From positions 1 to 64,000 of the forward strand of contig JAIMBD010000014.1 of the NCBI GenBank assembly GCA_023511625.1: 64,000 nucleotides of DNA, read 5' to 3'. Source of the DNA: Bacillota bacterium. GTDB taxonomy: Bacteria > Bacillota > Sulfobacillia > Sulfobacillales > Sulfobacillaceae. The position numbers and the translations under genes were made by a program. Below the pieces are notes generated by a model. It had not been told where the DNA came from. It saw nothing but the letters and a program-made list of their open reading frames with translations, and made no database searches. This document shows, in pieces, positions 3,996 to 36,974 of the stretch; the first letter of the stretch is position 1, and each line of letters begins with the position of its first letter.

Positions 3996-4145
3996 ACCCA
4001 CGGGATAACTAGGTACCCGGGAGCGTACTACATTGAATTGGGGTCCAAAGATGATAGCCCGGTAGAGCTTGGTCGCATGGTGGGCGCCAATGGGCTTCGT
4101 TGGCGTGCCTTCACGGCGTCGCAGTAACAAGCCGGAGGTATCGTG

Positions 4146-4352
4146 ATGGGTCAGTCCTCAACCGGTGGACACAGGTCGTCGAAGGGATGGTTGTGGCTGC
4201 TGCTGATCCCCTTCATCGGAACCCTGTGGGTTCCTTTCTACGCCTCGGTGCAGCCTACCCTCTGGGGCATCCCCTATTTTTACTGGTACCAATTCCTTTG
4301 GGTGATCATCAGTGCGCTTCTCACCTGGCTGGTATACGCGTTGACGCGGTAA
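4146..4352 (+). CDS. DUF3311-like small membrane protein, symporter partner
   Basis: 68 residues with two hydrophobic helices. The pattern WLLLIPFIGTLWVPFYASVQP followed by GIPYFYWYQFLW fits the DUF3311 family, small proteins usually encoded just before sodium:solute symporters of the monocarboxylate type. ATG 4146 is preferred over the adjacent GTG 4143 because CGGAGG lies 8 bases before the ATG. The symporter follows after 98 bases. Probably an accessory subunit or stability factor for that transporter; this role is inferred from neighbourhood. Confidence 0.75.
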   Translation: MGQSSTGGHRSSKGWLWLLLIPFIGTLWVPFYASVQPTLWGIPYFYWYQFLWVIISALLTWLVYALTR

Positions 4353-4450
4353 CAGCTCCGAGCGGAACCGTCGGTCGGCGAATGCGCCTCGCACCATGCC
4401 CTTCTCGCACCACGGCGCGCGAAATTCAGCGGAAAAGGAGCCGTTGTTCG

Positions 4451-5998
4451 ATGCAATGGACAGCCTTTGTCGTGTTCCTGATTTTCTTCGCCCTGGTTAC
4501 CGTCTTGGGCTTCTGGGCCTCCAGATGGCGTCGCGGCAACCTCGACCTGCTCGATGAATGGGGGTTGGCCGGCCGCCGCTTCGGAACCGCCATCACCTGG
4601 TTTTTGCTCGGCGGTGACCTCTATACCGCCTACACCTTCATCGCGGTGCCAGCGCTGGTCTACGGGGCCGGTGCGACCGGATTCTTTGCCGTCCCCTACA
4701 CCATCATCGTCTACCCGTTCGTCTTCGTGGTGATGCCGCGGCTGTGGTCGGTGGCCAAGCGTCACGGATACGTAACTGCGGCCGACTTTGTTCGGGCCCG
4801 CTATGATAGCCACGGCCTCGCCTTAGCCGTCGCCGTCACCGGCATCCTGGCTACCATGCCCTATATTGCGTTGCAGCTGGTAGGAATTCAGGTCGTCATC
4901 GCCACCATGGGCTTAACCGGCCGTGGCATTCTGGGCGATTTGCCCCTTATTATCGCCTTTGCCATCTTGGCGGCCTACACCTACACCGGGGGTCTGCGCG
5001 CCCCGGCCTTGATCGCCTTGGTCAAAGACGCCATGATCTACATCACCGTGCTGGTAGCAATCATCGCGCTGCCGATCAAGCTGGGAGGTCTGGGTCACAT
5101 CTTTCACGCCGCCCAGGTGGCTTTGCCTACGCATAAACCGCCGGGCGCGCTGGTGGTAGGGCCGGCGGGATACTCCGCCTACGCCACGCTGGCTCTCGGC
5201 TCGGCGTTGGCGCTCTTCCTCTATCCCCACTCGATTACTGGGGTCTTGAGTTCTGGAACCCGGCAGGTGGTGCGGCGCAACGCCGCGTTGTTGCCGGCTT
5301 ACTCCTTCATGTTGGGCATGATCGCGCTGTTGGGCTACGTCGCCATTGCCGCTGGCCTTCACCCCAAGGTGACCAGCCTCGTCATCCCAGAGCTCTTTCT
5401 GCGCGAGTTCCCGCACTGGTTTACCGGGTTTGCCTTCGCCGCCATCGCCATCGGCGCGCTGGTGCCTGCGGCCATCATGTCGATCGCAGCGGCCAACCTC
5501 TTCACGCGCAACATTTACCGAGAGTACATCAATCCCCAGTGCAGCCATCGGCAGGAGTCGCGCGTAGCGAAGTTGGTTTCGTTGTTGGTCAAACTCGGCG
5601 CCCTGATCTTCATCGTCGGCCTGCCCACCCAATACGCGATTACGCTTCAACTCCTCGGTGGAATCTGGATCCTGCAGACGTTCCCAAGCGTCATCCTCGG
5701 CTTGTACAGCCGCTGGCTGCACCGCACCGGCCTGCTCTTGGGTTGGCTTGCGGGGATGGTCGTAGGCACCTGGATGGCCGTCGCCGAGAAGTTCCAAAGT
5801 TCGGTCTTTCCCCTGCACCTCGGCGCCGCCGTCATTCCGGGCTATGCTGCGATTTGGGCACTGGTGGCCAACTGCGTGGTGGCGATCGTCTTCACCCTCA
5901 TCCTACGAGCCGCCGGTGTCCCGGAAGGCTCCGACCAAACCCGGAGCGCCGACTACGAACTCGATGTCCCAGAGGGCGAGGCCGCTGCGGCCTATTAA
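4451..5998 (+). CDS. Sodium:solute symporter (SSS family), probably monocarboxylate permease type
   Basis: 515 residues, about 13 predicted transmembrane helices. It begins with a hydrophobic helix (WTAFVVFLIFFALVTVLGF), followed by the Trp/Arg-rich loop and the conserved region LLGGDLYTAYTFIAVPALVYGAG typical of SSS transporters. Within the family, the association with a DUF3311 protein fits the MctP-like group that takes up lactate, pyruvate or related monocarboxylates with Na+ or H+. The frame is open far upstream, but AAAGGAG before ATG 4451 decides the start. The C-terminus is a short acidic cytoplasmic tail. Substrate is inference. Confidence 0.85.
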   Translation: MQWTAFVVFLIFFALVTVLGFWASRWRRGNLDLLDEWGLAGRRFGTAITWFLLGGDLYTAYTFIAVPALVYGAGATGFFAVPYTIIVYPFVFVVMPRLWSVAKRHGYVTAADFVRARYDSHGLALAVAVTGILATMPYIALQLVGIQVVIATMGLTGRGILGDLPLIIAFAILAAYTYTGGLRAPALIALVKDAMIYITVLVAIIALPIKLGGLGHIFHAAQVALPTHKPPGALVVGPAGYSAYATLALGSALALFLYPHSITGVLSSGTRQVVRRNAALLPAYSFMLGMIALLGYVAIAAGLHPKVTSLVIPELFLREFPHWFTGFAFAAIAIGALVPAAIMSIAAANLFTRNIYREYINPQCSHRQESRVAKLVSLLVKLGALIFIVGLPTQYAITLQLLGGIWILQTFPSVILGLYSRWLHRTGLLLGWLAGMVVGTWMAVAEKFQSSVFPLHLGAAVIPGYAAIWALVANCVVAIVFTLILRAAGVPEGSDQTRSADYELDVPEGEAAAAY

Positions 5999-6059
5999 AC
6001 GGCCCCTTGCGGGCAGTATGGACGTATAAACTTTCCTTAGGTCAGGGATCGCCAAAACG

Positions 6060-6142
6060 GCGAGACCTTCCGCCGGAAATCGTTGGGATTCCCGCGAACC
6101 CCTCGGTTGGCTGAATTCGAAGCGGAGGGCTGAAGGTCTCGC
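6060..6142. repeat. 11-bp perfect inverted repeat with 61-base spacer
   Basis: GCGAGACCTTC at 6060-6070 and its exact complement GAAGGTCTCGC at 6132-6142. It lies between the symporter stop and the ISLre2-type pseudogene that starts about 40 bases later. It may be part of the left end of that decayed element, or a long-range hairpin in the symporter 3' region. No T-tract follows. Confidence 0.5.
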
Positions 6143-6180
6143 GTGGACGATTCGGCAAATCATCGAGCGTGTCGCTGTGG

Positions 6181-6750
6181 ATGGGAGGGACGCGGGAGCT
6201 TTTGCAGACGGCCCGGGATTTCGCGGCGTTGGAGTCCGAGAACGTGGAATGGAGTCAGTAGTCGTCCCGCCCATTGCGGACTGCGGCCTTGGAGCACCTC
6301 AATGACACCCTCGGCGCCGAAGAGGGCGCGGGGATCCGCGTCGTGGGCAAAGCCGAACGGTACCCGACGACGCGGGTGGGCCGTCTGACCTTCCAGCGCC
6401 GCAATGTGCCGGATTGCACGACGGGGTGGCGGTACCCCCCTGGACGCGGTTTTGGGGTAAGCGCCAAGGGAACGGCTATCCCCCGGGGTGCAAGCACTGG
6501 TGGTGCAGGCGGTCCAAGCGACGTCCCCCATGGGGCGGCCCGGCTGTTGCGGGCCTGGATTCCGAGCCTGAGCGCCATGGCGTGTGGGCACAGGGTACAA
6601 CGGGTAGGGGCCCGCCTCCCGGCACAGCAAGCGAGCGACCGGGCGATGGTGGCGAAGCACGAGGAGGCCCCGACGGGGGCGCGCCGGGTGGGCACGCTCC
6701 ACCTGGAGACCGACAGGGTGTAGGTCCCAAGTCAGCAGGGCAGCGGCCAT
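6181..6750 (+). pseudogene. ISLre2-family (UPF0236) transposase pseudogene
   Basis: Most of one plus-strand frame matches the N-terminal half of ISLre2-type transposases: ARDFAALE, then RTAALEHL, then GIRVVGKAERYPTTRVGRLTFQ, the hallmark 'R-T-x-x-T-x-x-G-x-V-T-F' block, then AARLLRAWIPSLSAMA and QRVGARLPAQQ, then a block ending THL-like (GTLHLETD). The frame is broken by TAG at 6259-6261 and by TAG at 6721-6723 where a Trp is expected, and a segment near 6488-6530 (VQALVVQAVQATS) is in the +1 frame. The C-terminal half is absent. A dead element. Confidence 0.7.
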
Positions 6751-16232: not shown

Positions 16233-16328
16233 TGGCGGGAGTATGTGGGAATCGAACCCACCGCCGACCACGTCGGCCGGCCATTGGATTTGAAGTCCAA
16301 GGAAGGCACCAGGCCTCCACCTACCCCC
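16233..16328 (-). tRNA. selC: Selenocysteine tRNA, anticodon UCA
   Basis: A 96-base minus-strand sequence folds as tRNA-Sec. The anticodon loop CTTCAAA (anticodon TCA) sits on a 5-bp stem TTGGA/TCCAA. The D-stem is 6 bp (GGAGGC/GCCTTC), longer than in ordinary tRNAs. A long variable arm pairs GCCGAC/GTCGGC, and the T-arm is GTGGG-TTCGATT-CCCAC. The 3' end reads CCCGCCA with G73 and encoded CCA, as in E. coli selC. Six T follow directly and can terminate transcription. With the in-frame UGA and bSECIS in the formate dehydrogenase gene it shows that the organism makes selenoproteins; selA, selB and selD must lie elsewhere. Confidence 0.93.
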
Positions 16329-28973: not shown

Positions 28974-29588
28974 CTAAATACGGCGCCATGCCTGCACCAT
29001 CCCGAGGACTAGCGGAGCTGCGGCCACGGCCACGAGATTAAACAGGAGAACAGCCGGGACCATGGTCAGGAAAAGAGGCATCCGCTCTCCGCGCACGGCA
29101 ATTTCCCACCCGCCTGCGCGCGAAAACTCGTCGGCCTGCGCCCCCACCGTCTCGGGCGTCACCCCGTGCCGGTGCGCGTGCCACAACGTGGCCAGCACCA
29201 CCTCCGCCTCCACGCTGCGCCACGTGGCCGAAAGGCGTCCCCGAACTTGCGGCCATTCCTCCCCCGCCATGATGGCCCAAAGCGCCTCCTCCAGTTCTCG
29301 GCGGACGGTCGGCACGGCAAGCCAGGCCCCCTCCACTGCTTGCCACAGGGTCAAGCCGGCGCTGAGCTCAAGCGCGATGAGGTGCCAAAACCGGATCAGG
29401 TCATCGTGCCAGTGGGCGGGTTCCCGGCGCCACCGACTGGCTCCGGTCCACCCTCCGAGCGCGGCCAAGACCAAAAGGCCGATCACCGGACGGTGGATCA
29501 CAGCGCCCCCTATCGCGCCCATCCCAAGCCACGCCCAAAGCGGGAGACTCTGCCCGCCGCTGGCCCTTACTCCTTTGCCTGCGCGCAT
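28974..29588 (-). CDS. TadC-like inner membrane platform protein (T2SSF domain)
   Basis: 204 residues from ATG 29588. Two hydrophobic segments at the N-terminus (WAWLGMGAIGGAVI, GLLVLAALGG), a cytoplasmic T2SSF-type domain with FWHLIALELSAGLTLWQAVE and HAHRHGVTPETVGAQADEF, and a C-terminal membrane helix (PLFLTMVPAVLLFNLVAVAAAPLVL). T2SSF proteins form the inner-membrane platform of type II secretion systems and type IV/Tad pili, turned by the ATPase. It is last in the operon, after TadB. Its frame is open far upstream only because of the TadB frameshift; the Met after GGGAAAGAG is the natural start. Confidence 0.7.
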   Translation of the reverse strand: MRAGKGVRASGGQSLPLWAWLGMGAIGGAVIHRPVIGLLVLAALGGWTGASRWRREPAHWHDDLIRFWHLIALELSAGLTLWQAVEGAWLAVPTVRRELEEALWAIMAGEEWPQVRGRLSATWRSVEAEVVLATLWHAHRHGVTPETVGAQADEFSRAGGWEIAVRGERMPLFLTMVPAVLLFNLVAVAAAPLVLGMVQAWRRI

Positions 29589-30308
29589 CGACACTCTTTC
29601 CCAGCTCCCGCCGTGCGGGCGATGTGATGAGCCAGCCCGCCCAATGCCAAAGCCGTCGAGATCCCTACCCCCGTCACCACTGCGCGCCCTCCCTGGCTGC
29701 CGACCAGGGTATGATAGAAAGAACATCGGGGCCAGTGCGCGAAAACCGAAGAGCAAGAGCGGAGAGGCGACGGACAAAGCCATCGCCGTCGATCGCGTCC
29801 CGGCCTCTAACACCCGCCGGCGTTCGCGGTGCCACCGCTCTTGCTCCAACAGGCTCAGTGCCCGTTCCACCACCCTAGCGAGATTGCCCCCATGCCGTTC
29901 TGCCACCGGTGCCAAGTCGGCGACCAGTCCCAACGCTGGCACCGGCCACTGCCGCGCTACGGCTAAAAGCGCCGCCGTCGGCGTCTCCCAGTGCCCGATG
30001 GCTAAATCCGACCCGCTGATGGCCTCTTCTACCGCCCGCGCCGGAGGATGCAGACGGAGAAGGTGACCGAGGCGACGCAAGAACCCATCAGCCAGTGCTT
30101 CCCGTTCTAACGTGCGCCGCTCCACAGCCAGCGCTTGCGCTACAAGGCCGATCCCTACGGCGATGGACCCCCACAGTACTCCCACTGCCCGACCGCCCCA
30201 AATCAGGCCGAGGGGATAGCCTAAGGCGGTCCACCACGGCAGTGCGCCCGAGCCGATCCCGACGCCGAAAAACCCAAACCAGGCTGCCGTCTCAGGTACC
30301 CACGTCAC
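29567..30308 (-). CDS. TadB-like inner membrane platform protein, with an apparent +1 frameshift
   Basis: About 246 residues if one base is removed near 29713-29719. The first part (ETAAWFGFFGVGIGSG, then VERRTLEREALADGFLRRLGHL, ERHGGNLARVVERAL) is a T2SSF domain with membrane helices, ending in SPLLLFGFRALAPMFF. At that point the frame turns into Arg/Gly-rich sequence, while the +1 frame continues as LVGSQGGRAVVTGVGIST, a plausible last helix, and stops at TAA 29567. GTG 30308 overlaps the CpaF stop as GTGA and has AAGGAGG 7 bases upstream. As sequenced, TadB and TadC read as one 444-residue frame. It could be a sequencing error, a real fusion or programmed slippage. Confidence 0.65.
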
Positions 30309-31498
30309 GATGTCGCCTCCTTCGGGCCATTCCAGCGCCACACGAGTTCGAGCCCCTCCCGGTGTACCCGCTCCACTGTCGAAACTCTTCGGCTGCCGGT
30401 GGGTAGTCGCTCCAAAAACACCAGGGCATCGATGGTTTCCGTAATCTGGCCCAACATCTCGGCAAACCCAAAGCCCCGAGCTCGGCGCAACGCCAAACGC
30501 GCCAGCCGGTGCAGCACAGCCCATCCTCCACTGCGGCTGTGAATAGTCGCCATGGACCCCGATTGGCCGGTGGCCATCGCTTCCAACAGGTCAAAGGCTT
30601 CTTCCCCGCGCACCTCGCCCACGATGATGCGGTCCGGTCGCATGCGCAAGGCTTGGACGATCAGCTCGTGCAACCCTAAAGCGCCATCAGCTTTGAGGCT
30701 GACCACGTTCGGGCGGTCCAGAGCGAGTTCTCGCACGTCTTCGATCACCACCACGCGCTCGTCGGCCGGCACCACCGCCCCCAACATGCGCAACAGGCTG
30801 GTTTTCCCCGCTCCAGCTCCGCCGGCCACCAGGAGATTGAGGCGCTGCGCCACCAATTGACGCAGGATTTCCCACCCCCGGGCATCGAATGTCCCCTGGG
30901 CCATGGCCTCTTCCGGTCCCAACCGGCGTTGCCGGCGGCGGCGCACGGTGATGGACGGCACGGCCGCCACCGGCGGAAGCACGCAGTGAATCCGCGAGCC
31001 ATCGGCCAACTCGGCGTCGGCCACCGGATGTTCGCTGTTGAGCACCGTTCCTGCCCGCGCGACAAGTCGTTGCGCCAGCGCCAGCAGGTCATCTTCATCG
31101 CCGAGGTCGAGTTGCGCGCGCACCATCCGGCCGCCCCGCACACAGTAGATGTCTTCTGGTCCGTTGATAAATAGATCCTCCACGTCCTCGTCGAGCAGCA
31201 GTTGGTCGAGCGGGCCCATTCCGGCTATTCGGTTGACCAAGGCGCGCCGAAACCACCCCACCCAATCCCGAGCCACCGTAGGGTCTTCTCGCACCACCTC
31301 CTCTGCCACCGCCTCCAGCCGGCGCAGTCGCTCTCGGGTCCACACCAAGTGCGCAACCGCCTCGGGGTCTCGGGCACGGAGGCGCTGTTCCCACCGCTCG
31401 AGCCGCTCCGACAGCAAGGGCGCCTCAGGCTTGGGCGGCACCACCCCTGGTTGCCACCCTACGTCTTCCGCACCCTGCGTCCAATGAATTTCCACCAT
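30305..31498 (-). CDS. CpaF/TadA-type secretion ATPase (VirB11 superfamily)
   Basis: 397 residues. A hexameric ATPase of the PilT/VirB11/TadA family. N-terminal domain with VNRIAGMGPLDQLLLDEDVEDLFINGPEDIY, the classical CpaF signature. Walker A GGAGAGKT at 226-233, Asp box VVVIEDVRELAL, Walker B-like RIIVGEVRGEEAFDLL, and the His box ATGQSGSMATIHSRS. It powers pilus assembly or secretion from the cytoplasmic face. GGAGG lies 6 bases before the ATG. It overlaps the TadZ-like gene by 40 bases at its start and TadB by GTGA at its end. Confidence 0.9.
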   Translation of the reverse strand: MVEIHWTQGAEDVGWQPGVVPPKPEAPLLSERLERWEQRLRARDPEAVAHLVWTRERLRRLEAVAEEVVREDPTVARDWVGWFRRALVNRIAGMGPLDQLLLDEDVEDLFINGPEDIYCVRGGRMVRAQLDLGDEDDLLALAQRLVARAGTVLNSEHPVADAELADGSRIHCVLPPVAAVPSITVRRRRQRRLGPEEAMAQGTFDARGWEILRQLVAQRLNLLVAGGAGAGKTSLLRMLGAVVPADERVVVIEDVRELALDRPNVVSLKADGALGLHELIVQALRMRPDRIIVGEVRGEEAFDLLEAMATGQSGSMATIHSRSGGWAVLHRLARLALRRARGFGFAEMLGQITETIDALVFLERLPTGSRRVSTVERVHREGLELVWRWNGPKEATS

Positions 31499-32502
31499 CC
31501 CATCCTCCCCTCTCTTCTGGGCCCGTGCCCCAGCACCTGGGCCGATGGGGCAGCCACTCGGTCCTCCCGCGGCGACTGAACTCTTTCCGCGGAACCCTCA
31601 GGACCCGGCCATGACCGCAACGACACCGGTTCTTCCCGAACCCAGCGCGGGGCCCCGTCGGTCCGGACCACCGCTGCGATAGTCAACCGCGGGCCCACGT
31701 CGCGCAACCAAGCCACCACCGCCAGCCACTCGTCGCGACTCAGGGCCTCTACACCCAAAACCCACACCTCCTCGATGACGGCCAGGGTCGGAAGCCATAG
31801 CGGAGAGCGTAGGTCGGCCCCGAAGTCGAAGGCCGTCCAAGCCGTACGCCGCGTCACCCGAGTCAAGGCCTGAGCTTCTGGAGAAGCTGTAACCCCGAGC
31901 CACGGGGCCGGCGCAGGGCAGATGTAGCCCCAAGGCACCCGCCGCAGCCACAGATGCTCGCCGGCCGTAGGCGCCCACCGGCTGCGACCGGGAACCAGAT
32001 GGCGCGTCACCTGGGGATCCGCCCAGGCAAAATCGGCGATGGCCCCGAGCCCGTGTTCCGCCCGCGCGCGCTCAGCCACCCAGGTCCAAAACCGCGTCCG
32101 CGGATAGGCGCCGTCGGGGGTGTAGACTGCCCAGCGCCGCGGCAAGGGGTCGGCGGCCTCTGGGGTCACGATGTGATTCAACCAGGTTTCCAACCGGTCC
32201 GGTCCCACCGGTCCTACCCACAGCGCCACATCCGCCCGCACCGGTTCCAACGCCGCCCGCCAAGTCGCCGCCTCCTCCGCACCCACCCACACCACCCATT
32301 CTCCCGGCCACTCTAAAAGGCGTTCCGCCACCTGCTCCGGCGGGGGCAAACCAGGCAGGCGGCTACCCAAAAAGACCCCCTGGGCTTCGCCTAGACGGTC
32401 AAGCAGATCTTCCCAGGTGAAGGCCACCGACGCCACAGGTCCTGCGTAGCGCTCCTGAACCCACGCCTCGATACCGGGATGGCCGCTGGCCACCACTTTC
32501 AT
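31459..32502 (-). CDS. TadZ/CpaE-like protein with a degenerate P-loop
   Basis: 347 residues, not recognisable at first sight. The first 115 residues look like a receiver-type fold (MKVVASG, VFLGSRLPGLPPPEQV, WVVWVG). Then RWAVYTPDGAYPRTRFWTWV aligns in position with the ParA-type Walker A of TadZ/CpaE (usual form S-P-K-G-G-x-G-K-T), but the glycines and lysine are lost. The later TAWTAFDFGADLRSPLWL fits the D-L-P Walker region. The gene position between CpaB and CpaF is exactly that of TadZ/CpaE in Tad loci, which localise the machine to a cell pole. Assignment rests on position and weak pattern. ATG overlaps the CpaB stop as ATGA. Confidence 0.5.
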   Translation of the reverse strand: MKVVASGHPGIEAWVQERYAGPVASVAFTWEDLLDRLGEAQGVFLGSRLPGLPPPEQVAERLLEWPGEWVVWVGAEEAATWRAALEPVRADVALWVGPVGPDRLETWLNHIVTPEAADPLPRRWAVYTPDGAYPRTRFWTWVAERARAEHGLGAIADFAWADPQVTRHLVPGRSRWAPTAGEHLWLRRVPWGYICPAPAPWLGVTASPEAQALTRVTRRTAWTAFDFGADLRSPLWLPTLAVIEEVWVLGVEALSRDEWLAVVAWLRDVGPRLTIAAVVRTDGAPRWVREEPVSLRSWPGPEGSAERVQSPREDRVAAPSAQVLGHGPRREGRMGWWKFIGRRVRKT

Positions 32503-33044
32503 GGACCCGCCCCCACCAGCGCCACCGACCCTTTCAGGCGAGCCACTTCATACGCCAAGGCGGAAGCCGGAGGCATCGCCACCGTTACGGTGCCAGGACC
32601 GGACACCAGGGACGACGTCGCTCCCGCCGAGACCGCCAATACCGGGACTGGACCCGACCTCCACACCAACCCGTTTGCGGACACCACCAACACCTCCACC
32701 CATCCCCCCACCGTGGCCACGCTCGTGTCAGCTTCGGCATTGGGCACCACCGCCACCAGCACTTGATGCGCAATCGGCGGGCGGGTGCTAACCAAGGCGG
32801 TAGTGAGGACCTCGCCGGGGATCAGGTTCTGGGTTGCCCACCAGGGGCCTGATCCCGGCAACGGGGGCGGAGCGACCTGTCGTCGGACCGCCGAACCCAC
32901 GCGTTGCCCGGCCGCCACCGGCCGCGTCACCACCACCACCGCAGCCGGGTGGGCCTGCCAAGTCGGAATACTGGCTCCCACATAACCGGCAGCTGCCGCC
33001 GCCAGCGCCCCGACGGGCCACGGCAACCGCCCCCACCCCTTCAT
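32499..33044 (-). CDS. CpaB/RcpC-like SAF-domain protein
   Basis: 181 residues from ATG 33044. A short cytoplasmic start is followed by a membrane helix (LPWPVGALAAAAAGYVGAS), then an extracytoplasmic SAF/CpaB-type beta domain: VVVVTRPVAAGQRVGSAV, WWATQNLIPGEVLTTALVS and a C-terminal half resembling the RcpC/CpaB domain. In Tad systems CpaB links the inner machine to the envelope. The frame is open upstream but overlaps VirB4 there; ATGA overlap with the VirB4 stop sets the start. Confidence 0.7.
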   Translation of the reverse strand: MKGWGRLPWPVGALAAAAAGYVGASIPTWQAHPAAVVVVTRPVAAGQRVGSAVRRQVAPPPLPGSGPWWATQNLIPGEVLTTALVSTRPPIAHQVLVAVVPNAEADTSVATVGGWVEVLVVSANGLVWRSGPVPVLAVSAGATSSLVSGPGTVTVAMPPASALAYEVARLKGSVALVGAGP

Positions 33045-34678
33045 GGCCCGACCTCTTCCCCGTTTACAATGCGGGCCTCCCCCGGCGCTGCCCACACCTT
33101 CAGGCGCACATGTTGGTCGCCTGCCACCAAAATCCCCTCTCCGGGGCCGGCAGCATGGAGGTATTCCAGCTCGCCCTCGTGGAGCTTCAGTGCCGCCGCC
33201 AGCTGCGCAAGTCCTTCGGCGTGCTGCCGCAACAGCACCACCAACGGTGCGTTGCGCAGGCAGACCTCGGCCGCCGCACTGCGCACAAAATCGCCGAAGT
33301 CTTGGGTCAAGAGCGACAGGGCCGTGTTCCACTTGCGAGCGCGGCGAAACAGCTCTTCTAAGTACGGCGCGGTCTCTGGCTGGTTGAGCAGGTGCCACGC
33401 CTCATCGAAAATCACCAGCCGGCGCCGACCGCGCTGGGTTTGCCGGGCCAACATCTCGGCCAAAGCCAGGTAGACAGCTCCTCGATCCCCTGGCGGTACG
33501 GCATGCAGGTCGTACACCGCAAACGGTGGCGTTCCCCCTAAGGCGCGAGCACCCACCAATCGCCGCCATTTCGCCTGAGCCACCGCCATCAGTTCCGCCG
33601 CCTCGGCATCCCGCTCGGCCAGCTCTGCCTGCACCGCTGGAAACCGTGCGGTTTCGCAGGGCCGGTACGGCGTATCCTCGAGGGCCAAGATGCGCCACGC
33701 CGCGCGCACCCAAGCCCGTTCGTGCCGCTCATCGAAGCCGCGCACCAAACGGCGGCACAAGCGCCCGATGAAGTCCACCTGCCATTCCCACTCCTCCTCC
33801 AGGGAAAACGGGTCGAAATCCAGTCCATTCTGACTCTCACCCACCGTCACGACCGTCGCTCCCATCTTGGCCAAGCTCCGATACTCGCCTTCGGGATCGA
33901 CCACCGCCACCTCCCAGCCGCGAAACCGCGAACGGATGGCGTCGAGTTTAGCCCAGTAGCTCTTCCCGGCCCCCGACCATCCGATGGTGACCGAATGCGG
34001 CGATGGGTAACGGAAGCGGTCGACCACCAACAGGGAGCGGGTGGCAGGGTTAATCCCCCAGATCTGGCCCTCAGGGTCGGCCAGATCTTGACTGGCCAGG
34101 GGAAACAGCGTGGACCAGGCCTGACTATCCATCTCCCGTCCCCGGCCGACGTCGCCGAGCGGCAGCAACCGGCGAAACCCCGCCAGCTGTTGAAAGCGCA
34201 GGCGGCGAATAACCAACAACATACTTTGCGTAATTCCCTCCAACAGCTCGGTAGCCCGCTCCAATTCCTCGCGACTCTCTGCCCACAGTCCGAGGTAAAG
34301 CCCTACCTCCAACATCCGCGTGTCTCCCCGCGCCAACGCGCGCCGCAACCGTTCTGCATCCTCGATCGCCGTCTCCTGGTGCGGGTTGGTCAGCCGTCCC
34401 AATCGTTGATTCGCCGCCTCCGATCCCCGTTGCCAGGTCAGTCGGCGATTGAGATCAGCCATGGCCGTCCCTGGCGGCAACGGCTGGGTGTACAGCGCCA
34501 ACACCAACGGTCGGGGAAACTCCAGCAGGGGCAACAGCCACCCCGGCGTAACCTGGCGGGGATAACCGATCGCCACGAATCCTCGAAACCAGCGCGTGCC
34601 CACTTCGAGTTCGCCGGCATGCACCCGAACCGCGTCGGGATACAAGAGGTCGAGGTCGGCAGCCGGGATTTGGTTCAT
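33041..34678 (-). CDS. VirB4/TraC-type ATPase of a type IV secretion system
   Basis: 545 residues from ATG 34678, which overlaps the preceding stop as ATGA. A middle VirB4 region (LEGITQSMLLVIRRLRFQQ, FPLASQDL, GINPATRSLLVVDRFRYPSPHSV) is followed by Walker A GWSGAGKS at 233-240, VVDPEGEYRSLAKMGATVV, Walker B LVIFDEAW at 421-428 and the conserved NTALSLLTQDFGDF. VirB4 ATPases energise substrate transfer and pilin extraction in type IV secretion. The N-terminal VirB4 domain is encoded by the separate gene just upstream. Co-occurrence with CpaB and CpaF is unusual. Confidence 0.85.
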   Translation of the reverse strand: MNQIPAADLDLLYPDAVRVHAGELEVGTRWFRGFVAIGYPRQVTPGWLLPLLEFPRPLVLALYTQPLPPGTAMADLNRRLTWQRGSEAANQRLGRLTNPHQETAIEDAERLRRALARGDTRMLEVGLYLGLWAESREELERATELLEGITQSMLLVIRRLRFQQLAGFRRLLPLGDVGRGREMDSQAWSTLFPLASQDLADPEGQIWGINPATRSLLVVDRFRYPSPHSVTIGWSGAGKSYWAKLDAIRSRFRGWEVAVVDPEGEYRSLAKMGATVVTVGESQNGLDFDPFSLEEEWEWQVDFIGRLCRRLVRGFDERHERAWVRAAWRILALEDTPYRPCETARFPAVQAELAERDAEAAELMAVAQAKWRRLVGARALGGTPPFAVYDLHAVPPGDRGAVYLALAEMLARQTQRGRRRLVIFDEAWHLLNQPETAPYLEELFRRARKWNTALSLLTQDFGDFVRSAAAEVCLRNAPLVVLLRQHAEGLAQLAAALKLHEGELEYLHAAGPGEGILVAGDQHVRLKVWAAPGEARIVNGEEVGP

Positions 34679-35265
34679 TCCCACGCCCATCGCACCCCGC
34701 GGGGCAGCTCGCGCCCGCCCCCGAGACAGGCATAGAGAAATCGGAACAATTCCTCCCCTTCTAGTCGCCGCACCCGCACTCCCAGACCTCTTAGGCCTTG
34801 ATCGACCAACTCCTGCCGGCGCGCAAGCACCCGTTCGGCCTCTTCCCACAGGACCTCGCCACGCCTAAGCGGACGAGACCGGCTGTCAGTTCCCTGCCAC
34901 GAAAGGACCAGGAAAAAGCGGCGCCGAAGCAGGCTGCGCACGGCCGCCACCTCGCGCACAAATTCGAGGTACTCGGCCAACGAAGGCCTTAGATGCGCCT
35001 CGACCTCCTCTTCGCGCCGCTTTAATTCCCCCACGTATTCGTCCACGCGCAGGTGGTCGGTGTGAACCAACACCTGCACGGGAAACTCGAGCCCATTGAG
35101 AAAGGCCGCGTATTGGGCAACCATCCGCTCCTGGTCGCGGGCCGACTTCAGGCCGAAATTGACCGGCCACGCCTCCAACACGGCAGTGAACCGATCGCGG
35201 TCCACAAGGCACAGCCCTCCGCCGATCGCGCGAATGGGGAAAATGGTGCGCATCGCGTTCCCCAT
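34675..35265 (-). CDS. Separate N-terminal domain of VirB4 (TraC N-terminal type)
   Basis: 196 residues. IGGGLCLVDRDRFTAVLEAW followed by PVNFGLKSARDQERMVAQYA and FLNGLEFPVQVLVHTDHLRV matches the N-terminal region of TraC/VirB4-like ATPases, where the pattern 'NF-x-L-K-S-x-x-E-Q ... F-L-N-S-L-D-F-P-x-Q' is typical. The second half (EELKRREEEVEAHL, FVREVAAVRSLLRRRFF) is also part of that domain and suggests a helical, coiled-coil-like segment. It lacks the ATPase motors, which follow in the next gene with ATGA overlap. So VirB4 is made as two coupled polypeptides. Confidence 0.7.
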   Translation of the reverse strand: MGNAMRTIFPIRAIGGGLCLVDRDRFTAVLEAWPVNFGLKSARDQERMVAQYAAFLNGLEFPVQVLVHTDHLRVDEYVGELKRREEEVEAHLRPSLAEYLEFVREVAAVRSLLRRRFFLVLSWQGTDSRSRPLRRGEVLWEEAERVLARRQELVDQGLRGLGVRVRRLEGEELFRFLYACLGGGRELPRGVRWAWE

Positions 35266-35305
35266 GGTGCACCTCCTGCATTGAAACCTCTTTCCTGCCC
35301 CCTGT

Positions 35306-35596
35306 TCAGGGCAGGAACAGGCGGGATCCTAGGCGCCAACGCCCCCATCGCCAGAGCCAGGTCACCACTCCCTCTCCTTCCCATCGACCCCAGCCGAGAG
35401 CTGCGGAGATCGCCGCAACGACCGCCATCGCCGCGACCCGGCCCACCACGGGCTGCACTTGGTGCCATATCCAGACTTCGCCCATACCGCCCCCGAAGAG
35501 CCACGGTAGATCCGACAAGCGCAGTCCCCAAACCAGCTCAGGCTCTCGCGCCAATTCCAATGGCACCGTCCATTGGCGCAACTCCTCGCGGTCCAT
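35306..35596 (-). CDS. PrgI/VirB3-like small membrane protein
   Basis: 96 residues from ATG 35596. The beginning WTVPLELAREPELVWGLRLS is the hallmark of PrgI-family proteins of Gram-positive type IV secretion systems, followed by two hydrophobic segments (about 32-75). It corresponds to VirB3 and normally sits directly before VirB4, as here. AAAGGAG eight bases upstream sets the start; the longer frame to 35638 lacks a ribosome site. Confidence 0.75.
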   Translation of the reverse strand: MDREELRQWTVPLELAREPELVWGLRLSDLPWLFGGGMGEVWIWHQVQPVVGRVAAMAVVAAISAALGWGRWEGEGVVTWLWRWGRWRLGSRLFLP

Positions 35597-35627
35597 CGCC
35601 TTGACTCCTTTCTCGCCTCTCGCCGCC

Positions 35628-36401
35628 TCACACCCCAAACCCTGCTCCCCGACCCTGGCCCAACCACCGTCGCAGTTGACCGGGCAAGCGCGTCATGAAC
35701 CACAGCACCCCCACCGCCTCCAGTTCCGAGCCCAACGAACCGCCTTGCGCGATGAGGCGCGCCGCCAGCCAAAACGCCCCGGCATGTAAGGACTGGATAA
35801 ACACCGCCGCCACCAAATCTGCCGCCCCCCGACGGAAGGCGCCGTCATCTCCCCCTCCTAAGCCGTATAAGGCCAGCCAAGGCAGGACGGCAGTGAGCAC
35901 CGCCACTTCCAGCGCCCGCCAGGCGTAAAACAGCCCCAGGTACAGGCTTAATCCAAACCCCAGCAACACCAGGGTCATGGCCAGGAGGGGCGCCGCCAAC
36001 AAGGTGCCAAGCGAAACGGCCTGCCCTGCCGGCCAGCTTCCGGCCGAACCCACCACCGCCGCCACCACGGCGTTGTTTAACGCCAGCATCCACTGCGTCA
36101 CGGGAGCCGCCGCCACCGCCACCAGTCCAGCCCCGACCGTCCGCACCAAGACCTGCCCGGGGCTCGGTCCGTGCTTGATTGCGGTCCACGGTCCCATGCT
36201 GCCTAAAAGGGCCCAACCGAGAAACACGGCCAGCGACGACCAAAAGAGTTGACGGCTAAGATCCACCAAAGCCGTCGTGGCGTCAGACCATCGCAGGGCG
36301 GAAAACACGGCAGCTTGTAACACGCTGGCGCTGGCGGTCCAGGCCTGGCCCACCAACCACTGGGCCAGCGCTTGAGCGAAGCCTGCCCCGCTTGCCGGCA
36401 T
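35628..36401 (-). CDS. VirB6/TrbL-like polytopic membrane protein
   Basis: 257 residues with about six hydrophobic helices (for example WSSLAVFLGWALLGSMG, LVAVAAAPVTQWMLALNNAVV, LLAMTLVLLGFGLSLYLGLF, VLTAVLPWLALYGLG). Composition, length and position between the VirB2-like pilin and the PrgI-like gene fit VirB6/TrbL, the inner-membrane channel component of type IV secretion systems. The pattern is not family-diagnostic alone; context carries the call. A clear Shine-Dalgarno sequence is lacking, so it may be coupled to the preceding gene 18 bases upstream. Confidence 0.65.
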   Translation of the reverse strand: MPASGAGFAQALAQWLVGQAWTASASVLQAAVFSALRWSDATTALVDLSRQLFWSSLAVFLGWALLGSMGPWTAIKHGPSPGQVLVRTVGAGLVAVAAAPVTQWMLALNNAVVAAVVGSAGSWPAGQAVSLGTLLAAPLLAMTLVLLGFGLSLYLGLFYAWRALEVAVLTAVLPWLALYGLGGGDDGAFRRGAADLVAAVFIQSLHAGAFWLAARLIAQGGSLGSELEAVGVLWFMTRLPGQLRRWLGQGRGAGFGV

Positions 36402-36419
36402 GGCGGATACGGCCCCCTT

Positions 36420-36653
36420 TTACGACGCCAAATACTGCAACAGCTCCCGCAGGGCTCCTACCAGGAGGATCAAGAGCAGCCCCAAGGCTGCCCGGCCCAT
36501 GATCTCCTTGGCCCCCTGAACGGCCCGGGGACTGTGCGCCATCATGAAGCGAATTCCCCCGTAGACCATGACCAGGGAAAAGACGCCGCCGGCCATCCCC
36601 ATGAGGATGGTGGTGGCCCGGGAGACCACCGACAGCAACTGCCCGTTTGGCAC
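36420..36653 (-). CDS. VirB2/TrbC-like pilin or pilin-like protein
   Basis: 77 residues from GTG 36653. Two hydrophobic helices (TTILMGMAGGVFSLVMVYGG and GRAALGLLLILLVGALRELL) are joined by a short loop with the typical GAKE motif, as in TrbC/VirB2 pilins. Unlike most VirB2 proteins it has no long signal peptide. GAAGGGGG eight bases before GTG 36653 favours this start over GTG 36662. It is the first gene of the hybrid operon. No Flp-type pilin is found, so this may be the filament or pore subunit. Confidence 0.7.
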   Translation of the reverse strand: MPNGQLLSVVSRATTILMGMAGGVFSLVMVYGGIRFMMAHSPRAVQGAKEIMGRAALGLLLILLVGALRELLQYLAS

Positions 36654-36974
36654 CTGCCCCACCCCCTTCTGTCCTGTGCTGTTTCCTCATCGATCTCGGC
36701 AAGAGCCTACCTCCGCCAGGCGGGAGAAATCCTGGCGATTTTCCTCGCCATCGGCACTGCTCGGCGGCTCCATGCCCGCCCTCGAGCACTCTGGCGGATT
36801 CGACAAGTTTGGGGAAATCCTTCCATTCCTTTCATGTCCGTTCCTGGCCTTGCATGGCCTTGCATGATGCGGGGAAGGGCAGACGGATGGTCTCCGGCAA
36901 ACCGGGAAAGGGTAGAGACGAATCCGTGTGCGCGCCGGTTTAGGGTCCGCGCCATCATAGGGAGGCAGTGCGAT
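36654..36974. other. Divergent intergenic region between the secretion operon and the permease gene
   Basis: About 320 bases. Promoters for both the minus-strand secretion operon and the plus-strand permease must lie here, but no clear -35/-10 pairs are visible. A short repeated word CCTTGCATGGCCTTGCATG occurs around 36849-36867. Confidence 0.4.

Follow-up and report, generated by a model that had tools for sequence, protein, structure and literature searches.

The analysed window, a stretch of 64,000 nt from a member of the Sulfobacillales, carries an operon in which a minimal type IV secretion system (T4SS) core, consisting of VirB2, VirB6, VirB3 and a split VirB4, is combined with a second, diverged set of Tad pilus genes. 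From the genes and their genomic context, we give a nearly even chance to the reading that the operon encodes a conjugation system that has been domesticated, is passed on as part of the chromosome and moves DNA between the cells of one population. Much more tentatively, one could imagine that a Tad motor (CpaF-TadB-TadC together with CpaB and a TadZ without P-loop) both extends and retracts a conjugative pilus made of VirB2, as one chimeric nanomachine that would serve an order-wide, Spo0A-timed exchange of chromosomal DNA in place of ComEC-dependent transformation. All ten genes were found on the minus strand in the order of the original prediction:

36799..36805, minus strand: predicted Spo0A box TGTCGAA, exact 7-mer, lying some 137 nt before the first gene
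36420..36662, minus strand: VirB2/T4SS-pilin-like protein with two TM helices (PF18895, 2.8e-5)
35628..36401, minus strand: VirB6/TrbL-like channel protein (PF19597, TrbL_4, 6.4e-8)
35306..35596, minus strand: PrgI/VirB3-like protein (PF12666, 0.0029; position kept in relatives)
34675..35265, minus strand: TrsD-like N-terminal part of VirB4 as its own gene (NF042935, 6.6e-7; NF045971, 4.3e-6; TrsD, 8.6e-4)
33041..34678, minus strand: VirB4 ATPase with intact Walker A and B motifs (NF045971, 4.2e-57)
32499..33044, minus strand: CpaB/RcpC-like SAF-domain protein, in ATGA overlap with VirB4 (SAF, 0.016)
31459..32502, minus strand: TadZ/CpaE-like protein with a receiver and a ParA/MinD-like domain without P-loop (predicted fold)
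30305..31498, minus strand: CpaF/TadA secretion ATPase (T2SSE, 1.5e-37; TIGR03819, 2.3e-73)
29567..30308, minus strand: TadB platform protein, frameshifted by 1 nt near 29,722 (T2SSF, 0.028)
28974..29588, minus strand: TadC platform protein (orthologues follow TadB in relatives; weak hhalign match to canonical TadC)

From the N-terminal part of VirB4 through TadB the gene ends overlap, namely by ATGA at the VirB4 N-part/VirB4, VirB4/CpaB and CpaB/TadZ junctions, by 40 nt between TadZ and CpaF, and by GTGA between CpaF and TadB, which confirms the ATGA overlap noted between VirB4 and the Tad half. The start of VirB2 was corrected to a GTG near 36662, and tadB, frameshifted in the window, is intact in genome G092.

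Profile searches placed the left five genes in the T4SS families that had been proposed for them (T4SS pilin, TrbL/VirB6, PrgI/VirB3, TrsD-like VirB4 N-part and VirB4). The match of the window's VirB2-like protein to PF18895 (T4SS_pilin) lies just under the cut-off, and this profile is matched by all 18 aligned VirB2 copies (best 8e-14), six of which also match TrbC/VirB2. The best families for the VirB4 N-part, which is split off as a gene of its own in relatives too, are the SCO6880 family (7e-7), CD1110 VirB4 (4e-6) and TrsD, and the ATPase is a CD1110-family VirB4 (4e-57) in which SGxGKS and DEAW are invariant among the aligned copies. The suggestion that VirB4 may handle a VirB2-type subunit is consistent with these profiles. 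With its VirB4 carrying Walker motifs and its adjoining VirB3/PrgI and VirB6 homologues, the operon agrees with a T4SS of the MPF_FATA type; that neither a VirB8 nor a cell-wall hydrolase was recognised within the operon counts against a conjugative role.

The right half holds the CpaB, TadZ, CpaF, TadB and TadC families in the canonical Tad order, as had been claimed. In the window, CpaB and TadC are weak or silent in profile searches. The identity of CpaB is settled by synteny, by SAF matches in relatives (best 3.9e-5) and by hhalign alignment to canonical CpaB (E 1.6e-9), that of TadC follows mainly from its position, and TadB aligns with canonical TadB by hhalign at 4e-36. TadZ found no match in the profile search; its predicted fold (AlphaFold2, pLDDT 81) comprises a receiver and a ParA/MinD domain (Spo0F, Z 12.9; ParA, Z 14.2), and the P-loop is present in none of the 55 hybrid rows of the alignment versus 18 of the 20 canonical ones. 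CpaF and VirB11 belong to one ATPase superfamily. The statement that the locus has no VirB11 is hence formally correct, but CpaF also matches the VirB11 profile TIGR02788 (9e-52). In the tree, hybrid CpaF forms a clade apart from canonical Tad CpaF (support 90/98, with long branches meeting), and these two clades rule out that it is a recent copy of the latter. A complete canonical Tad locus (L031; Flp, CpaB, TadZ, CpaF, TadB, TadC, TadE) lies on another contig of the window's genome, and a prepilin peptidase is likewise encoded on another contig. Neither Flp, which sits in the canonical locus, nor TadE occurs inside the hybrid operon. As such, the reported lack of Flp and prepilin peptidase holds for the window but not for the genome.

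We compared 42 genomes of the Sulfobacillales (Sulfobacillus and relatives, heat- and acid-loving spore-formers), 40 of which encode VirB2 and VirB4. Since the arrangement is conserved across 40 genomes, a chance origin is excluded. In the loci compared, the operon shares its chromosomal neighbours, namely gatB, an rRNA methyltransferase gene, a permease and often a thioesterase. A variable insertion site and a patchy distribution, as expected of a mobile element, were not observed, and on these grounds of synteny and distribution we reject that the operon is one. In the named collection, each of the 34 Sulfobacillales loci of sufficient length has CpaB and TadZ directly behind VirB4, and these two genes were never seen apart from VirB4 in the order; the same junction occurs in none of 45 loci that belong to Patescibacteria or Chloroflexota or are unclassified. 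The gap between VirB4 and CpaB ranges from -38 to +18 nt. In genome G091 the whole block from VirB2 to TadC stands twice in tandem, with one copy degraded. The conserved VirB4-CpaB-TadZ junction, the joint retention of both halves in nearly all genomes and this duplication of the block support the earlier view that the two halves are one unit. Our searches of the open-licence literature did not turn up any account of a VirB4-CpaB-TadZ operon. The degraded copy and the frameshift in the window's tadB might alternatively be read as signs of a decaying integrated conjugative element that came to lie next to a Tad fragment by chance, which is highly improbable, as the shared neighbours, the conserved catalytic motifs of VirB4 and the presence in nearly the whole order strongly contradict it.

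It could also be that one operon encodes two machines, i.e., that the Tad half assembles an ordinary type IV pilus with Flp supplied by the canonical locus, while the T4SS half forms a separate DNA channel, comparable to Ups and Ced in the Sulfolobales, which cooperate (PMC11868833). Flp and prepilin peptidase are indeed encoded elsewhere, in genus g8, among others, CpaF-TadB-TadC lies apart from VirB4-CpaB-TadZ, and the T4SS core of family f35 has no adjoining Tad half. However, the constant attachment of CpaB and TadZ to VirB4 and the lack of a Flp-type pilin and of TadE in the operon speak against this arrangement. Moreover, the hybrid CpaF persists in genomes G089 and G096, neither of which yielded a canonical CpaF, and Flp was likewise not found in G096, although gaps in these metagenome-assembled genomes are possible. 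Altogether, we regard two separate machines as quite unlikely.

The original prediction further noted the lack of a coupling protein. This holds for the window, but a VirD4-type orthologue (PF02534, PF10412, PF12696) is encoded by relatives in a separate conserved chromosomal locus. In this locus, bounded by minC and a phosphomannomutase gene, it adjoins a Replic_Relax gene (PF13814, best 3e-8). In the cultured Sulfobacillus strain S. thermotolerans Kr1, the coupling protein occurs together with the operon and a canonical Tad locus. A search of the window's genome at E 1e-3 did not find the coupling protein, with a weak profile to which orthologues score weakly everywhere, nor was its gene found in the inspected stretches of contig C20. 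Inspection of ORFs and conserved genes at the locus revealed no classical relaxase near the operon. The Replic_Relax protein carries an invariant D, ExD, K pattern, was compared with PD-(D/E)XK nucleases and perhaps cuts DNA; in the fold search its best Z was about 7, with nucleases not above background. Among the functions originally proposed, DNA transfer is a better candidate than adhesion. The coupling protein makes it more likely that donor cells export DNA to recipients, and its presence renders uptake alone less likely. Proteins, too, are transported by T4SS cores that have coupling proteins, and the relaxase-free chromosomal T4SS of Patescibacteria, whose VirB4 is the closest outside the class, are thought to be non-conjugative (PMC12102498). 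Nevertheless, it is very unlikely that the machine secretes proteins or effectors against neighbouring cells upon contact, as neither the operon nor the coupling locus has conspicuous conserved neighbours for effectors or immunity and the Replic_Relax gene next to the coupling gene points to DNA.

With regard to regulation, tandem Spo0A boxes lie at similar places upstream of the operon in relatives (predicted Spo0A target: TGTCGAANNNTGTCGAA). Near-perfect pairs, i.e., predicted sites with at most one mismatch, were found in 8 of 37 non-redundant operon upstream regions versus 0.01 expected in shuffles. Across 6,254 segments of 200 nt (about 1.25 Mb), 13 of the 14 near-perfect pairs precede VirB2 or the coupling gene (duplicate loci counted) and only one lies elsewhere; the tandem boxes before the coupling gene occur in one genus. 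At canonical Tad loci, Spo0A boxes remain at background level. Spo0A itself is encoded in 23 of 24 genomes, and the exception, G096, also has no box. We conclude that the machine is probably Spo0A-controlled, although the absence of boxes before the operon in genus g8 counts against this. LexA/SOS boxes, sought before the operon by analogy with the DNA-damage induction of Ced, were not found, and scanning the window for sigma-70 promoters returned nothing.

The same regulation would also suit an adhesion or biofilm pilus, whose VirB2 or VirB2/Tad fibres bind minerals or cells under active Spo0A without moving any substrate. Tad pili are adhesive, Spo0A controls entry into biofilms in Bacillus according to the literature, and T4SS thought to form adhesive pili only, such as Trw of Bartonella, have been reviewed. 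We consider this role unlikely, as a conserved coupling protein, matching Spo0A boxes in one genus and a Replic_Relax neighbour make little sense for a pure adhesin, and a separate canonical Tad pilus is usually available for adhesion.

ComEC is missing in all 42 genomes of the order, and class-wide this VirB2 occurs in 49 genomes and ComEC in 80, with no overlap. This mutual exclusion, which may trace to one or a few ancestral events, suggests that natural transformation was replaced. A ComB-like two-step uptake feeding ComEC is ruled out, since the order has no ComEC. DprA cannot be used as a sign of uptake because it is absent in 19 of 24 genomes; this absence, which bears on the fate of incoming ssDNA, counts against DNA transfer.

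If the operon does encode a single DNA-exchange machine, Spo0A would turn on both the operon and the coupling locus when starvation begins. VirB4, VirB3 and VirB6 would then constitute a membrane translocon that feeds VirB2 into a thin fibre, and CpaF with TadB and TadC could act as a VirB11-like traffic ATPase and platform that extends or retracts this fibre and draws cells together. CpaB may form a ring and TadZ may serve as a positioning or scaffold protein, while the coupling protein would hand DNA to the channel, possibly after the Replic_Relax protein has cut it.

Several known systems resemble parts of the hybrid. Like the Ced/Ted importers of Thermoproteota (PMC9905601, PMC11868833), it has a chromosomal VirB2/VirB6/VirB4 core without relaxase (here judged at the locus) in a thermoacidophile and a VirB4 N-part divided between proteins, and Ced is paired with a type IV-type (Ups) pilus in Sulfolobales. 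It differs by VirB3 and Tad genes in the operon, by the VirD4-type coupling protein of relatives, by a spore-forming bacterial host and by its predicted control through Spo0A rather than DNA damage. With the MPF_FATA systems of monoderms (pGO1 Trs, CD1110-type ICEs) it shares PrgI/TrsC, TrsD, VirB4 and VirB6 homologues, its VirB4 being closest to the CD1110 family. In contrast to these, the hybrid operon lies off mobile elements, has Tad genes attached, has no recognised relaxase, hydrolase or VirB8 beside it, and includes a VirB2 pilin, which is reported to be absent from Gram-positive classes (PMC12102498). The co-opted T4SS of Patescibacteria, for which a role in epibiosis has been proposed, likewise have VirB2-like pilins, PrgI and TrsD and are chromosomal and mostly without relaxase, but no CpaB/TadZ adjoins VirB4 in the loci read (PMC12102498).

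PAPI-1 and IncI (R64) transfer DNA by VirB4 and VirD4-type ATPases that act together with a type IV pilus (PMC12857230), which resembles the function proposed for the hybrid; these are diderm mobile elements whose type IV pili have their own pilins and whose VirB4 operon contains no Tad set. The linear plasmid of Cutibacterium acnes carries a tad locus together with VirB4, FtsK-like and TcpC-like genes on one Gram-positive replicon (PMC5696575), yet its tad locus encodes Flp pili and its conjugation genes form a separate upstream group. Compared with the canonical Tad pilus, whose gene order it retains, the hybrid has no Flp or TadE, its TadZ has lost the P-loop, and the canonical locus is usually present besides.

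Conjugation machinery domesticated for cellular DNA transfer has been described in hyperthermophilic archaea and not reported in other organisms (PMC9905601). A bacterial order of hot, acid, Sulfolobales-like habitats appears to have domesticated conjugation too, with an integrated Tad motor and under apparent control of a sporulation regulator, and a mobile element's machine may thus have been turned into the cells' own means of DNA exchange. Such a system would make it possible to test whether type IV pilus motors can drive T4SS pili, and it would open a genetic route into Sulfobacillus, which is used in bioleaching.

The original prediction placed ten genes, from a VirB2-like pilin to TadC, in one minus-strand operon, and this order was borne out, with profile searches assigning the left genes to type IV secretion system (T4SS) families. 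The features of the window discussed here are:

36662-28974, minus strand: hybrid operon comprising, in order, VirB2/T4SS-pilin-like, TrbL/VirB6-like, PrgI/VirB3, TrsD-like VirB4 N-part, VirB4 ATPase, CpaB, TadZ-like, CpaF, TadB and TadC
29,720-29,730: apparent 1-nt frameshift in tadB, either an assembly error or a real lesion, joining the mechanical TadB ORF to TadC (tadB is intact in genome G092)
16233-16328: selenocysteine tRNA gene (ARAGORN)

CpaF was assigned to the TadA family by profile search. The window's own VirB2, PrgI, CpaB and TadB gave weak scores in the same searches, but their assignments stand because relatives carry them: T4SS_pilin was matched by 18/18 aligned VirB2 copies, SAF by CpaB of one relative (3.9e-5), and profile-profile comparison tied CpaB and TadB to their canonical Tad counterparts (1.6e-9 and 4e-36, respectively). 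TadC is the weakest of the ten assignments, based mainly on position. Profile search returned no sequence match for the window's TadZ-like protein; in its structural model (pLDDT 81), a receiver domain (Spo0F, Z 12.9) precedes a ParA/MinD domain (Z 14.2), and this predicted layout is the one expected of CpaE/TadZ. The P-loop is kept in 0/55 hybrid TadZ rows versus 18/20 canonical rows.

The prediction that no Flp is visible holds for the hybrid operon but not for the genome, which encodes Flp, a P-loop TadZ and TadE in a separate canonical Tad locus. In a CpaF tree, the hybrid copies fall into one clade and the canonical copies into another (support 90/98). Since only hybrid CpaF was found in two metagenome-assembled genomes (MAGs), G096 and G089, and no Flp in G096, the hybrid half seems to be independent of the canonical locus, subject to possible gaps in these MAGs.

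By genome search, VirB4 and likewise VirB2 occur in 40/42 genomes of Sulfobacillales, including S. thermotolerans Kr1, S. benefaciens, S. acidophilus and S. harzensis; the two without a match are G099 and the incomplete G124. The predicted proximity of VirB4 to Tad genes recurs across the order, with VirB4, CpaB and TadZ in succession in every locus extending far enough, and CpaF-TadB-TadC directly downstream in most; a CpaF match lies 23-32 kb off in genus g8 and a few kb off in three genomes. Among the loci compared, the operon has as neighbours gatB and the genes for an rRNA methyltransferase and an amino-acid permease, often together with a thioesterase gene; all were named by sequence and not by profile. 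In S. thermotolerans (L035, ~4079-6679), phenylacetate-degradation paaABCD-like genes separate VirB2 from the thioesterase gene, and in the relative L042 they follow TadZ instead. The whole VirB2-TadC block is doubled in tandem in G091 (L043 and L044, ~12 kb apart), one copy being broken into many frames. Beyond the order, a TadZ-like frame, called by eye and not by profile, follows VirB4 in families f34 and f21, the latter also with CpaF; the T4SS core of family f35 lacks an adjoining Tad half, and CpaB/TadZ follow VirB4 in 0/45 loci of Patescibacteria, Chloroflexota or unclassified origin. At the end of one of its contigs (L052, G000:C37, ~142,600-144,400), the window's genome carries a second VirB4 with a fused PrgI/N-part, which probably belongs to an integrative element.

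A genome search for VirD4 gave strong matches of element-borne look and, in many genomes, a weak match of ~500 codons. Read in place, the weak matches are one orthologous gene, whose neighbours are a phosphomannomutase gene at one end and, at the opposite end, minC and the gene of a Replic_Relax protein. Its product has N-terminal hydrophobic helices, GPTGSGKS and DEFHQ, and orthologues also occur in G096, G093, f22 and f34. The predicted lack of a coupling protein holds for the window but not for the relatives, which encode the VirD4-type orthologue elsewhere. In the window's genome the search gave no match at E 1e-3, but a copy may have been missed, since orthologues score as low as 1e-4. 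A D..ExD..K pattern is invariant in the Replic_Relax protein, for which a fold search gave no decisive match.

Predicted tandem Spo0A boxes (core TGTCGAA; PMC3485338) with a 10-bp period precede VirB2 in 8/37 non-redundant upstreams at <=1 mismatch and in 15/37 at <=2 mismatches, versus 0.01 and 0.09 expected from dinucleotide shuffles. A further control, over 6,254 windows (200 nt each) from the same loci, gave 14 tandem-box sites at <=1 mismatch, a count taking in some mutually duplicate loci. Of these sites, 11 precede VirB2, 2 precede the coupling gene of genus g8 and the last falls in a transposase region. Upstreams of canonical Tad loci show such boxes at background only, and a single exact box lies in the window. 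Of 24 genomes, 23 encode Spo0A, and the sole genome without it also lacks boxes. At L193, L195 and L203, the probable start codon of the coupling gene follows the tandem boxes after only ~20-30 nt; so close a placing would be odd for activation, and Spo0A may act as a repressor there.

ComEC was absent from 42/42 Sulfobacillales genomes in the genome search. It occurs in 80/154 genomes of the class and in 0/49 of those positive for VirB2, an exclusion that may be a single historical event because all seven families with VirB2 may belong to a single clade. DprA is mostly missing as well. Also within the class, G043-G057 (families f23-f26) gave neither ComEC nor the VirB2 system at the cut-offs applied.

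Chimeras of T4SS and type IV pilus are known on mobile elements such as PAPI-1 and IncI (PMC12857230), and chromosomal domestication of conjugation machinery is known in archaea (PMC9905601). The sequences show which genes are present, how far they are conserved, the state of their motifs and the enrichment of boxes; DNA as the substrate, the direction and timing of its transfer and a mechanical link between CpaF and VirB2 are what we infer. Overall, these bacteria inherit together, as one chromosomal unit, two ATPase systems that usually act separately, with a coupling protein encoded elsewhere that, judging from its upstream boxes, apparently shares control with the operon in one genus, and a domesticated DNA-transfer machine would be the simplest account of the hybrid operon.
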